Source: Pedobacter sp. ok626 (GTDB lineage Bacteria > Bacteroidota > Bacteroidia > Sphingobacteriales > Sphingobacteriaceae). From it: DNA of 64,000 bases. The translations under genes were made by a program, and so were the position numbers. A model generated the notes under the pieces. That model did no database searches and was not told the DNA's origin. It saw only the letters and a program-made list of their open reading frames with translations. Position 1 is the first letter of the stretch. Every line of letters begins with the position of its first letter. Shown here piece after piece: positions 14,969 to 18,907 of this stretch. The stretch is from assembly GCF_900100435.1 (NCBI RefSeq), contig NZ_FNEX01000013.1, positions 62,001-126,000 on the forward strand. The letters run 5' to 3'.

Positions 14969-16543
14969 TCATTTTCTTTCATTTTTTAAATAGCCCACCA
15001 AATCTGTAATGCTATTTATATGCAGCTGTCTAGCTTGTGTTCTTCGCATCATTAGTGCATAGGTGTTGTTAAAGCCTATCGGAGAAAGCCATTTCAGGTT
15101 GTATCGGTCTTTGAAAGACTTTGAAACAAAATCAAACACTTTTTCCCTTGAAGTAATTAAGCTGTCAATAATTTTCTCTTTTGGTTTAAGTATCACTAAT
15201 AAACCTGTGCCGGTATATTCGGGATACATATCAATCTGGTCGTTGATCAATGCTTCAAAAACAATGTTTGTTCCACCCAAGCCCGTTTTTGTAGCTACAT
15301 TAAGATCTGTGTATCCTTTAATCAGCATCGCATACATGTTGCTTAAAATGTATTGTTCGGCGAAAATCTTTGATCCGATTCGTATCGTTCCTTTTTTACC
15401 ATTGCGTGGTTCACGCCATAGCAGATTGGCCAGTAGGAAATCTTTGGCAATTTTTTCGGGATCCTGATGCAGATAGTCCGCTTTGTAATTAAGATCCGTC
15501 ATCACCGAATCAGAAATACGGTTTGATAAAAGTTCAAGTACATTTTCGAGTTCGGGGTATTTTAAAAGCGTTTCATTTCTGATTACAGGTGCAGCATAAT
15601 AGGGCGGAAAAACATTTTTGTCATCAATAAGTGTGGTTAAATCAAAGGCTTTTAATCGTCCGTCCGTACTATAGCCGCTAATCACATCAAGTTCCTTCTC
15701 ATAGGTGGCTTTATACATTACAGCGTCACTTATGACCACGTTGCGAATGTTGAGCCCATATTTGTTTTTAAGGCCTGGGTATCCATCTGCTCTTCCAATA
15801 AATTCAGGAGTAAATCCAGCCTGTAACCCAGTATTGTAGCTATTGGGAATAGTATAAAATGAGGAAAGCAGGAGGGGGAGTAAAAAAAATGAGAAGTGGG
15901 CGACACGAAACTTTCTAAAATTAACCTTTTGAATTTTTCCCAATAAAAAATCAAAAGCTATCGCCAACAAGGCAGCCGGTATTGCCCCAGCTAAAATCAT
16001 ATTACTGTTATTCAATGCTATTCCACCAAAGATAAATTCGCCCAAACCTCCTGCCGCTATGTATGCAGCAAGTGTAGCTACACCCACATTAATAACTGTT
16101 GCGGTACGAATGCCGGCAAATATTACCGGCATAGCCAGCGGTAATTCTACTTTGAATAATACCTGCATATTGGTCATTCCTAATCCTTTTGCTGCTTCAG
16201 TTATCTCTTCACTCACACCATTTATCCCCGTAAACGTATTTCTTATGATGGGTAATAATGCATATAATAATAAAGCTATAATTGCTGATTTGGGCCCTAT
16301 ACCTAAGAGTGGTATCATAAATCCTAATAGTGCAATACTTGGAATTGTTTGTAATATACCGGCGAAACCTAAGACTGGTTTTGCAAATATTTTTTTTCGG
16401 GAAATAAATACACCAAGAGGCAGACCAATCAGAACGGAAATAAATAAGGATAAAAAAGTAAGACTGATATGCTGTAGCGTTTGCTCTAACAACTTATCTG
16501 AATGTGCAAGAATGAATTGTCCTAATGTTTGTGTATCCTCCAT
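14969..16543 (-). CDS. Fused ABC permease/substrate-binding protein of the OpuB/EgtU type, binding domain circularly permuted
   Basis: The 524-residue protein has a permease domain at residues 1-210, with the EAA loop EAAKGLGMTNMQVLFKVELPLAMP (116-139, read in two parts), an extra helix at 216-232, then an OpuAC-type binding domain. The order of the binding domain is unusual. Residues 241-370 match the usual C-terminal half (RADGYPGL, YSTDGRLKAFDL, FPPYYAAPV, LNYKAD), and 386-517 match the usual N-terminal half (IRIGSKIFAEQYIL, PEYTGTG, GFNNTYAL, SITDL). The family imports choline, glycine betaine or, in EgtU, ergothioneine. Its start overlaps the ATPase stop by 1 bp. Confidence 0.93.
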   Translation of the reverse strand: MEDTQTLGQFILAHSDKLLEQTLQHISLTFLSLFISVLIGLPLGVFISRKKIFAKPVLGFAGILQTIPSIALLGFMIPLLGIGPKSAIIALLLYALLPIIRNTFTGINGVSEEITEAAKGLGMTNMQVLFKVELPLAMPVIFAGIRTATVINVGVATLAAYIAAGGLGEFIFGGIALNNSNMILAGAIPAALLAIAFDFLLGKIQKVNFRKFRVAHFSFFLLPLLLSSFYTIPNSYNTGLQAGFTPEFIGRADGYPGLKNKYGLNIRNVVISDAVMYKATYEKELDVISGYSTDGRLKAFDLTTLIDDKNVFPPYYAAPVIRNETLLKYPELENVLELLSNRISDSVMTDLNYKADYLHQDPEKIAKDFLLANLLWREPRNGKKGTIRIGSKIFAEQYILSNMYAMLIKGYTDLNVATKTGLGGTNIVFEALINDQIDMYPEYTGTGLLVILKPKEKIIDSLITSREKVFDFVSKSFKDRYNLKWLSPIGFNNTYALMMRRTQARQLHINSITDLVGYLKNERK

Positions 16544-17511
16544 CAGAAATTATTTTTATATTGGACAAATGCATTCATTAATTCTTCTAGCGTAGCGCGC
16601 TTGTTTTGGTCATCATTTTTTAATTGAACATTAACCTGTGTATCATTTTTCTTGTTTAGGGTTAGCACTTCAATTACTTTCCAAAGACTGGTTTCGGGCG
16701 CAAAATCAAGTTTAATATTGGAGTTATTCGGCTCATTTGCGTTTACATATGACCATATATCATTTAAAAAAGTAGTAGTCACACTCAACTGAAAATGCGT
16801 TTGCTCAAAAAACTGTTGCACAAAGTCGTTAGCAGGTCGAAAAAGTAATTCCTTTGGCGTACCAACCTGCATGATTTTACCCTTATCAATTAAACAAATC
16901 CTGTCGGCTAATTCAAAAGCTTCCTGCACATCGTGAGTTACCATAAGAATGGTTTTTTTTTTAAATTCTTCCAGTTCACTAAACTCTTTTCTTATTGAAA
17001 TGCGGGTAACAGGATCGAGTGCGCCAAAAGGTTCATCCATCAAAAGAACTGCGGGGTTAGCAATAATTGCACGGGCAAGATTTACGCGTTGGGCTTCACC
17101 ACCACTTAATTCATTTGGATAGGAGGAAAGTCGCTCTTTGGGCAACCGAAATTTATGCAAAAGTGCAACGGTCTTTTCTTCAATCTTTTTTTTATCCCAA
17201 TGCAATAATTTTGGAACAACAGCAATGTTTTCGGCTACTGTATAGTGTGGAAATAAACTATTTCTTTGTAAAACATATCCGATTTCCCTTCTCAGCTTTT
17301 CAACCGGGATGTCCAGTACATTTTTATGGTTCAGATGGATAGTTCCTGAGGATGGGCTAATGAGCCTATTGATCATTCTTAGCATCGTTGTTTTGCCTGA
17401 TCCACTTGTGCCCAATAAAATAAAGTTTTCTCCTTCCTTTATTTCAAAAGAAATGTTATTGACGGCAATATTTTTTCCAAAACTCTTGCTGATGTTGGCG
17501 ACCTTTATCAT
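16543..17511 (-). CDS. ABC transporter ATP-binding protein (OpuBA/EgtV-like)
   Basis: A 322-residue ATPase with Walker A GTSGSGKT (34-41), Q-loop YVLQRNSLFPHYTV, signature LSGGEAQRVNLARA, Walker B LLMDEPFGALD and the switch His in MVTHD. The C-terminal extension after residue 230 lacks an obvious pair of CBS domains of the OpuA/ProV type. It powers the fused permease/binding protein encoded immediately downstream. The gene follows the disulfide reductase gene by 7 bp, so all are probably one transcript. Confidence 0.95.
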   Translation of the reverse strand: MIKVANISKSFGKNIAVNNISFEIKEGENFILLGTSGSGKTTMLRMINRLISPSSGTIHLNHKNVLDIPVEKLRREIGYVLQRNSLFPHYTVAENIAVVPKLLHWDKKKIEEKTVALLHKFRLPKERLSSYPNELSGGEAQRVNLARAIIANPAVLLMDEPFGALDPVTRISIRKEFSELEEFKKKTILMVTHDVQEAFELADRICLIDKGKIMQVGTPKELLFRPANDFVQQFFEQTHFQLSVTTTFLNDIWSYVNANEPNNSNIKLDFAPETSLWKVIEVLTLNKKNDTQVNVQLKNDDQNKRATLEELMNAFVQYKNNF

Positions 17512-17518
17512 TAGGGTG

Positions 17519-18907
17519 TTACTTGCTAATTTTCATAAAAAGATTATTAACTGCTTCAGCATAGGTTGGGTGTGCAAAAATCTGGGATTTCAAGAGATCT
17601 ACTGTAATTCCCCCAAGCATACACATCTGTAACAGGCTCATGATCTCGCCGCCTCCAAATCCTAGAATTGACACGCCAAGAATCTCCTTTGTATCCATAT
17701 CCACAATTGCCTTCATAAAGCCTTTAGTTTCCCCCGCCTCAATCGCCCTCGCAACATAATTCATGGGCAATTTGAATACCTGGTAATTGAGTCCAGCTCT
17801 TTTTGCTTCATTTTCATTTAGGCCCACACGAGCAAATTCGGGGTCAATAAAGACACAATAGGGTATTTGTCTTTTATCAATCGTCATGTTGCCATTTTCC
17901 AACAGATTGGTTGCCACTATCACAAAATCATTATAAGAAACATGTGTGAATGCAGGCCCTGGCTTTACGTCACCCAAAGCATAAATATGCGCTATATTTG
18001 TTTCTAACTTCGAATTGGTTTTGATGTACCCTTTTTCATCAATTTGGACACCAGTCTTTTCAAGATTCAGCTCGTCGGTATTTGGCATTCGGCCAGTGGC
18101 AATTAGTAATTGAGAAGCAATTATTGTTTCTTCCTTTGCGCTGGTGGACACCGTAATAGAAATAGCTTGGTCAGCTAAAAGCGCAACTGATTTTACGGTT
18201 GTGCCTGTGAGTATCTCAATTCCTTCCTGGCGTAATATTTTCGAAATCTCTTCGGAGATATCATCATCTTCTTTTTGTAGAATACGATCAGAACGTTCTA
18301 ATATGGTAACCTTACTCCCGAAACGAGCAAACATCTGGCCGAATTCCAGAGCGATATAGCTTCCTCCAATGATGACAAGATGTTCTGGCACTTTATCCAA
18401 CTTCATAATTGATGTAGAAGTGAGAAATGGAATTGTGGATAGGCCCGGCGTATCTGGTATGCTCGGTCTTGCGCCTGTGTTAATAAAAATATATGTTGCG
18501 GTAATAGTTTGAGTACCTCCCGAAGAAAGCTCAATGGTTAGTGTTTTATTTTCGGAAAATGTAGCTTTCCCATAGATCAATTGAATATTCTGGGAATTTG
18601 CAAATCCTTTTTCAATGCTTTTCCGAGCATTTTTAATTATTGTATCTTTTCTTTCAACTACTGCGGCCAGATTAACAATAATATTATTTGTGTTTATGCC
18701 ATATTCATTTGATCTCCGAGCCTGAAAAGCCATTTTTGCTGAAGAGACCATGGCTTTAGTAGGGGTACAGCCGTTGTTGATACACGTTCCGCCAACGAAT
18801 TCTTTTTCAATAATCGCCACTTGCCAACCCTCAGCAGCAAGTCTTTGTGCAAGTGGCTTTCCGGCCTGCCCGGTGCCAATTATTATAGCATCAAATTTCT
18901 GAATCAT
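17519..18907 (-). CDS. Class I flavoprotein disulfide reductase (mercuric reductase-like)
   Basis: The 462-residue enzyme has the FAD-binding GTGQAGKPLA (11-20), the redox-active cysteines Cys42 and Cys47 in GGTCINNGCTPTK, a second nucleotide-binding motif (IIGGSYIALEFG) and the C-terminal FAHPTYAEAVNNLF with the catalytic His-Glu pair. It resembles proteins annotated as mercuric reductase, but it has no heavy-metal domain at the N-terminus and no C-terminal Cys pair, so Hg(II) reduction is doubtful. It probably reduces a disulfide or quinone with NAD(P)H. Its placement with an importer fits thiol or redox metabolism; this is inference. Confidence 0.9.
   Translation of the reverse strand: MIQKFDAIIIGTGQAGKPLAQRLAAEGWQVAIIEKEFVGGTCINNGCTPTKAMVSSAKMAFQARRSNEYGINTNNIIVNLAAVVERKDTIIKNARKSIEKGFANSQNIQLIYGKATFSENKTLTIELSSGGTQTITATYIFINTGARPSIPDTPGLSTIPFLTSTSIMKLDKVPEHLVIIGGSYIALEFGQMFARFGSKVTILERSDRILQKEDDDISEEISKILRQEGIEILTGTTVKSVALLADQAISITVSTSAKEETIIASQLLIATGRMPNTDELNLEKTGVQIDEKGYIKTNSKLETNIAHIYALGDVKPGPAFTHVSYNDFVIVATNLLENGNMTIDKRQIPYCVFIDPEFARVGLNENEAKRAGLNYQVFKLPMNYVARAIEAGETKGFMKAIVDMDTKEILGVSILGFGGGEIMSLLQMCMLGGITVDLLKSQIFAHPTYAEAVNNLFMKISK

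Follow-up and report, generated by a model that had tools for sequence, protein, structure and literature searches.

An OpuCC/EgtU-type binding domain in circularly permuted order, fused to an ABC permease in Pedobacter and other Bacteroidota

The window analyzed in this study is a stretch of 64,000 nucleotides from Pedobacter sp. ok626, and one of its genes poses a question of protein topology: the product appears to join an ABC permease to a substrate-binding domain whose two halves stand in swapped order. Is this domain a true circular permutation of a known family, where was the chain opened, how did the arrangement arise, and what does the transporter carry?

Domain layout, half order and the site of the cut

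The open reading frame of 524 amino acids (positions 14969..16543, minus strand, as are all features below) is read from Pfam matches and full-length homologues as a permease followed by a membrane helix and a circularly permuted, putatively quaternary-amine-binding domain; the plus-strand frame over the same positions is full of stops. The permease domain occupies residues 1-212 (15908..16543), where BPD_transp_1 (PF00528) matches at 40-212 (5.3e-22) and ProW-type NCBIfam models match below cut-off. The extra helix that the original prediction had placed between permease and binding domain was confirmed by hydropathy at residues 214-232 (15848..15904; best 19-residue mean 1.66) and coincides with a low-confidence model helix at 209-235; it anchors the binding domain. 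A hydrophobic segment follows the permease in all 77 fused members measured (median 2.15, lowest 1.43). The canonical C-terminal half is placed first (residues 240-371; 15431..15826; PF04069 model positions 115-255, EgtUC 139-271) and consists of the second part of lobe 2, then the C-part of lobe 1. Residues 372-385 (15389..15430), the gap between the two profile matches, form a linker from the old C-terminus to the old N-terminus. The canonical N-terminal half is placed last (residues 386-524; 14972..15388; PF04069 model positions 2-113, with an OsmF-type NCBIfam match at 386-521 below cut-off) and consists of the N-part of lobe 1, then the start of lobe 2. The motifs stand in the order first claimed, with DGYPG, YSTDGR, FPPYY and LNYKAD in 240-371, and IRIGS, PEYTGT, GFNNTYA and SITDL in 386-516.

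Pfam splits the permuted proteins into two partial matches. In the window protein, the OpuAC family (PF04069, 5.8e-55) matches in two stretches of swapped order, and in the genome search the upstream piece corresponds to model positions 115-255 (protein 240-370) and the downstream piece to positions 2-113, both above cut-off. Likewise, EgtUC, OpuCC, OpuBC, AfProX, and the nicotine- and acetylcholine-sensor scaffolds among the PDB sequences each match the native-order query in two stretches. Once the halves are restored to canonical order, PDB chains match about 270 residues in one stretch, for instance EgtUC 7txl (8-280 with 5-270, 182.5 bits), AfProX (11-280 with 8-269), and the nicotine-sensor binding protein 7s7x (3-280 with 11-284). 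Among the 27 PDB sequences listed for the restored query, two stretches are seen only in four chimeras carrying an inserted fluorescent protein.

A profile built from 65 canonical binding domains gave swapped pieces in 79/79 members of the permuted set and in 0/65 canonical proteins; 64 of the latter form one colinear piece, and the remaining one forms two pieces in canonical order. The boundaries are nearly constant, the N-part ending at model positions 122-127 in 79/79 members (at 125 in 67) and the C-part starting at 124-128 in 74/79 (at 126 or 127 in 60). Both moved halves are similarly close to canonical EgtU/OpuCC-type proteins (33-48% identity), which makes the permutation traceable residue by residue; permutants with unpermuted relatives this near serve as informative natural experiments. 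By sequence over both halves, the domain belongs to the OpuCC/EgtU/AfProX-type family within PF04069, but its half order is not the canonical one; since the order is swapped in 79/79 members, we consider it a variant rather than a standard member of this family.

The structure prediction that had been proposed as a check returned a single bilobal fold. AlphaFold2, run on residues 234-524 with 44 aligned members, gave one confident model (pLDDT 93.1, pTM 0.90), in which the permuted domain is predicted to fold as one Venus-flytrap whose ligand cage would be formed by residues in swapped order. The full-length model is poor (pLDDT 78.5, pTM 0.61, with the helix-to-domain junction 230-237 under 50), so the docking of the binding domain on the permease is not visible in it. 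The first Foldseek match in the PDB is B. subtilis OpuAC, aligned over the whole model (296-311 columns, 13-15% identity, rmsd 4.7-5.4), whereas for most sequence relatives (30-46% identity) the alignment covers a single half (132-143 columns, rmsd 1.0-3.0) and a few canonical relatives span the full model at rmsd 8.4-9.7 (8dp6, 8dp7, 4z7e, 5nxy_A, 6eyq). This combination of half-only matches to close relatives and a whole-domain match to a distant one is what a permutation produces. VIA likewise places OpuAC first (Z 20.0, 242 residues, rmsd 3.3), the next family being GlnPQ domain 1 (Z 10.4); canonical relatives are not among the best 50 VIA matches listed, which is uninformative by itself. 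A colinear alignment to an OpuAC domain, named beforehand as evidence that would speak against a permutation, does occur at the structural level with B. subtilis OpuAC (13% identity), yet the permutation claim stands because B. subtilis OpuAC is a permutant too, by comparison with its own family.

The new ends are not where they were first placed. The hinge had been proposed as the cut site, and this is wrong: both ends fall inside lobe 2 when mapped onto S. pneumoniae EgtU, for which the available parts of PMC9732360 give lobe 2 as 341-432 and lobe 1 as 233-331 plus 445-506. The EgtU ligand residues were mapped via the E. faecalis protein, where the spacings of 51, 97 and 99 from K242 agree; the mapped spacings beyond the junction are 6 short, presumably because the domain extraction drops 6 residues there. 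By this mapping, the termini lie after the first helix of lobe 2, at about EgtU 362-370, L240 being equivalent to roughly EgtU 368, and the C-terminal residue of the 524-residue protein to EgtU 370 at most. The old ends would thus be joined by the short linker and the new ones opened in the loop after this helix, which begins with S-x-x-D-L in both the window protein and the permuted OpuAC-type proteins. In the permuted chain, lobe 1 is uninterrupted, lobe 2 is made of two segments, and it is into lobe 2 that the membrane helix leads.

The proposal of a circularly permuted OpuCC/EgtU-type domain fused to an ABC permease is supported alike by sequence, profile, tree, and structure prediction. 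We hold with high confidence that the binding domain is a true circular permutation of the canonical OpuCC/EgtU/AfProX-type domain in a quaternary-amine importer, with a topology that OpuAC-type proteins reached independently.

Distribution and origin of the permuted fusion

In the genus of the window, the permuted fusion was found in 24 of 36 genomes, the window's own included; the half order was read at the window and 11 further loci, and the other copies were judged by colinear full-length matches. Of 72 loci in the genome contigs, 43 hold a full-length permuted fusion; truncated or split copies also occur. In 395 Bacteroidota genomes, with matches at E 1e-25 or better, the order permease, C-half, N-half (P-C-N) occurs in 22 genomes (again counting the window's own) and the domain-first canonical order N-C-P in 31, and no P-N-C fusion is seen among the matches. 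The hosts of the permuted fusion named at the family level are Chitinophagaceae, Sphingobacteriaceae, and Hymenobacteraceae. A search for homologs with the same order had been proposed as a check for a lineage trait, and it is one, all 79 members of the permuted set showing this order.

The N-C-P fusions of the same phylum (L108-L115, L124-L146) have a related permease (40-57% identity) and a related binding domain, but this domain is N-terminal and in canonical order. They were considered as a source of the permuted form and rejected, as a simple rotation of N-C-P yields P-N-C or C-P-N and never P-C-N, and the N-C-P domains form a clade of their own (100/99). The permuted fused rows also form one clade (100/99), nested among the canonical OpuCC/EgtU-type set in a careful tree of 53 domains. 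In the permease tree, the permuted rows are not one group (2 changes).

Tandem duplication followed by trimming is the textbook route to a circular permutation, and the fused form could have originated in this way, by duplication of the domain and loss of the outer halves. Duplicated intermediates (tandem domains or P-N-C-N-C) are absent among the ORFs of 157 loci. One locus labeled N-C-C (L068) was rejected as an intermediate, as the whole-domain profile shows two pieces of one canonical domain.

The window copy itself groups in the SBD tree with Chitinophagaceae-type rows (71% identity to Flavipsychrobacter) and not with the copies of its own genus (63-66%, L004-L014). This placement suggests that the gene may have been acquired by horizontal transfer; the permease tree does not resolve the grouping of the window copy. 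For these trees, thinning at 82% identity kept 97 of 145 SBD rows and thinning at 85% kept 95 of 164 permease rows; two long rows were dropped from the quick SBD tree and seven from the permease tree. The 53- and 61-row trees consist of hand-picked representatives.

Other phyla, named according to record titles, were searched with profile A1 at E 1e-46, a cut-off below which diverged permuted forms would escape. In Bacillota, stand-alone permuted proteins were found in 7 of 398 genomes (8 ORFs), two more genomes giving half matches only. Six of these seven loci (L171-L177) contain permease ORFs, and seven of the eight proteins have a lipobox-like Cys pattern, the eighth being a near match by eye. 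We know of no description of this stand-alone group. At the same cut-off and with no positive control, the searches gave 0/398 genomes in Pseudomonadota, 0/201 in the phylum of the Anaerolineales locus, and 0/149 in the phylum of the Spirochaetaceae locus. A single hit, a fused form, came from the 146 genomes in the phylum of the Microcoleus locus. This permuted fusion (L178) lies in a 2.3 Mb genome (G1345) and may reflect transfer or a misplaced genome. Another locus, titled Rubrobacter (L066), adjoins a Chloroflexia sequence in the SBD tree and has the same phylum genome list as the Anaerolineales genome, so it may be mislabeled.

The stand-alone proteins bear on whether the fused Bacteroidota form descends from a permutation shared with Bacillota, with fusion to the permease coming later. 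Their order and cut are the same (N-part end at model position 125 in 8/8, C-part start at 126-128), and one clade of fused and stand-alone forms is not rejected when OpuAC rows are in the tree (p-AU 0.098). On the other hand, the best tree separates the two (forks 82/96 and 88/93, not starred), p-AU falls to 0.030 without the OpuAC rows, and the pocket letters differ, the I243-equivalent being E in 6/7 and the Y419-equivalent F in 7/7. A shared permutation is thus a serious possibility that we lean slightly against, and the Bacillota stand-alone proteins may represent a third origin of the permutation.

Gene neighborhood, ligand pocket and related systems

The permuted gene is preceded by a ProV-like ABC ATPase gene (16543..17511, minus strand; TIGR01186 proV 1.6e-84, below cut-off), whose stop overlaps the start of the permease gene (TGATG). 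In 35 of 43 homologous loci, the ATPase ORF ends at most 80 nt from the start of the permuted ORF. With a BPD_transp_1 permease beside a ProV-like ATPase gene, the system is assigned to the Type I ABC importers of the OpuA/ProW type. A further gene, 17519..18907 (minus strand), encodes a FAD/pyridine-nucleotide-disulphide oxidoreductase (PF07992, PF02852) and is a probable operon partner; its best NCBIfam match, NF004992 (3.4e-162), is below cut-off, and TIGR01350, dihydrolipoyl dehydrogenase, exceeds its cut-off by 0.4 bits. In 23 of the 43 permuted-fusion loci (L015-L058, L072), the gene immediately preceding that of the adjacent ATPase encodes a MerA/RclA/lipoamide-dehydrogenase-like FAD oxidoreductase. 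A distant relative (26% over 159 aa) is also found after an EgtU-type operon in Lacticaseibacillus (L123).

The gene product would supply both the membrane part and the binding part of an ABC importer that takes up a quaternary amine. Together with the upstream ATPase, the fused protein could form a homodimeric transporter carrying a pair of tethered binding domains, ATP driving import and each permuted domain being held by the helix plus about seven residues.

The pocket residues stand at matching EgtU positions, as these are given in the available parts of PMC9732360: the aromatic cage Y443, Y495, Y291 and Y315 with N493, and the carboxylate contacts K392, R251 and T446. Across 80 permuted sequences, the K, T and N, as well as Tyr at the EgtU F293 and Y443 positions, are invariant; the EgtU Y341 position is Tyr in 79 and Trp in one, and the R is kept in 79, with a gap in one. 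The EgtU Y419 cage position is more variable (67 Tyr, 12 Ser, 1 Asn), and members of the permuted family may therefore differ in ligand. The three marks of high-affinity ergothioneine binding, G244, F293 and Y337, are present in all four EgtU-like canonical fusions compared and absent from the window protein, which has F394, Y443 and F491. In the 80 permuted sequences, the G244 position is F in 76, the F293 position Y in 80, and the Y337 position F in 79. F/Y/F at these positions is the glycine-betaine state of AfProX, which points to a carboxylated quaternary amine such as glycine betaine. Judged from the sequence, the ligand is probably of this class, glycine betaine being the most likely candidate.

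Ergothioneine, the EgtU substrate, would be the other candidate. The closest solved domains include EgtUC, and the disulphide-reductase-type operon neighbor in 23/43 loci has its distant relative after the Lacticaseibacillus EgtU-type operon. Some EgtU relatives without the marks take up ergothioneine at lower affinity (PMC9732360, in the parts available), which limits the confidence in the ligand class, weak ergothioneine binding being compatible with absent marks. Against ergothioneine as the ligand stands the replacement of all three marks defined there in nearly the whole permuted set (F 76/80, Y 80/80, F 79/80), and we consider it unlikely. A simple betaine is the ligand that we prefer.

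Among known systems, EgtU and the BilEB/OpuF-type fusions have the same domain content, quaternary-amine pocket scaffold, and adjacent ATPase as the window protein. The canonical EgtU-type fusions also carry permease, helix and binding domain in one chain, with the extra helix at the same place (by eye), but in canonical order, so that the helix enters lobe 1 rather than lobe 2, and they have the marks G/F/Y in place of F/Y/F. OpuBC/OpuCC and A. fulgidus ProX contain a homologous aromatic-cage domain (30-37% identity over the Foldseek-aligned half; 3mam, 3o66, 3ppn, 5nxy_C) but are separate, unfused proteins in canonical order.

Treponema TpMglB-2, a tethered binding protein of Type Ic, has also been described as a natural circular permutant; it differs in its Type I fold, sugar ligand and cut, in the poor conservation of the moved part, and in being unfused, and its authors name tethering as a possible reason for the permuted topology (PMC4990184, in the parts available). 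Since canonical tethered fusions exist (EgtU, L. lactis OpuA), tethering alone does not require permutation. Among the open-access papers listed, no title or abstract beginning was seen to describe a permuted binding domain joined to a permease.

The same loop opened in OpuAC-type proteins

PF04069 also splits and swaps the OpuAC-type proteins of Niallia and Listeria (115-257 then 2-112; 114-257 then 2-116). The canonical fusions of Niallia, E. faecalis, and Listeria follow it in one piece, from position 1 or 2 to 256 or 257, so the Pfam model named OpuAC runs in canonical order. The Listeria OpuAC-type protein, which we take to be GbuC, is colinear with B. subtilis OpuAC (2b4l) and swapped relative to 3l6g/7ahc of L. 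lactis OpuA (161-262 with 3-103 and 2-153 with 105-255), whose homologous domain is canonical, unlike B. subtilis OpuAC. Of ten OpuAC-family proteins drawn from the plasmid collection, three have the permuted order and seven the canonical one. In the OpuAC family trees, two canonical proteins (L159, L160, the latter on a long branch) stand among the three permuted ones (L152, L153, L158), hinting at more than one permutation there, or at a reversal.

Natural permutation among glycine-betaine-binding proteins is already known; according to the available parts of PMC2395249, it was reported from structures in 2008 and exemplified by 2b4l, 1r9l and 1sw1. PMC2861598, on the L. lactis OpuA domain, contains none of the terms permut, swap and disloc. 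The window protein is a real and widespread variant. The OpuAC/GbuC-type proteins have the same permuted topology and cut loop as its binding domain (Z 20.0) but are separate lipoproteins of a different sequence family (13-15% identity) and of independent origin; they are Trp-cage glycine betaine binders (PMC9732360, in the parts available).

The shared topology and cut loop could mean that the fused form inherited or captured its permutation from B. subtilis OpuAC/GbuC-type proteins, and a quick tree with two OpuAC rows did join the long OpuAC branch to the permuted clade at 99*. This two-row outgroup (branch about 5) had an unstable place, and the 99* grouping is gone with ten rows. In the 53-domain tree, with its ten OpuAC-family rows, the split between the OpuAC and OpuCC/EgtU-type families has support 100/100, and each permuted group falls inside its own canonical family; forcing the permuted OpuAC and permuted fused rows into one clade costs 285 log units and is rejected (p-AU 5.7e-7). 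Identity to OpuAC is 13-15%, against 30-46% to canonical OpuCC/EgtU/AfProX-type proteins. Inheritance or capture from OpuAC-type proteins is therefore very improbable: the window domain has their topology and cut, but no ancestry in common with them that would exclude the canonical OpuCC-type. The OpuAC-type and Bacteroidota permutations are independent, and the same loop was opened in both.

The permutation thus recurs in a second family and may do so in a third group, all of them proteins with an actual or apparent membrane tether. We tentatively propose that the loop following the first lobe 2 helix is a permutation hot spot in quaternary-amine-binding domains, opened at least three times independently (in OpuAC-type lipoproteins, Bacillota OpuCC-type stand-alone proteins, and Bacteroidota permease fusions) and always with tethering through lobe 2; if so, this would suggest selection on where the tether enters the domain. 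The use of the same loop by two lineages is a testable statement on foldability and on how a tethered domain is held above its permease. This loop could also be a candidate opening site for engineered sensors based on this domain.

Two further explanations of the swapped order deny a permutation of one domain. Recombination could in principle have assembled two half-domains from different binding proteins, but the permuted fused rows form one group in each of the N-half and C-half trees (supports 96* and 89; the grouping was compared, not the sister groups), each half resembles EgtU/OpuCC-type proteins to a similar degree (33-48% identity), and the pocket residues of the two halves are conserved together, which leaves a chimera hardly credible. 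Misassembly is able to produce a swapped order, but an assembly error or a dead gene is a negligible prospect when 79 sequences of many genera share this order, almost all of them have an open frame, and the pocket residues are conserved. Interruptions are apparent in two members of the permuted set (L057, L091), one a Hymenobacter copy that spans two frames, the other the copy of genome G135, with a single in-frame stop.
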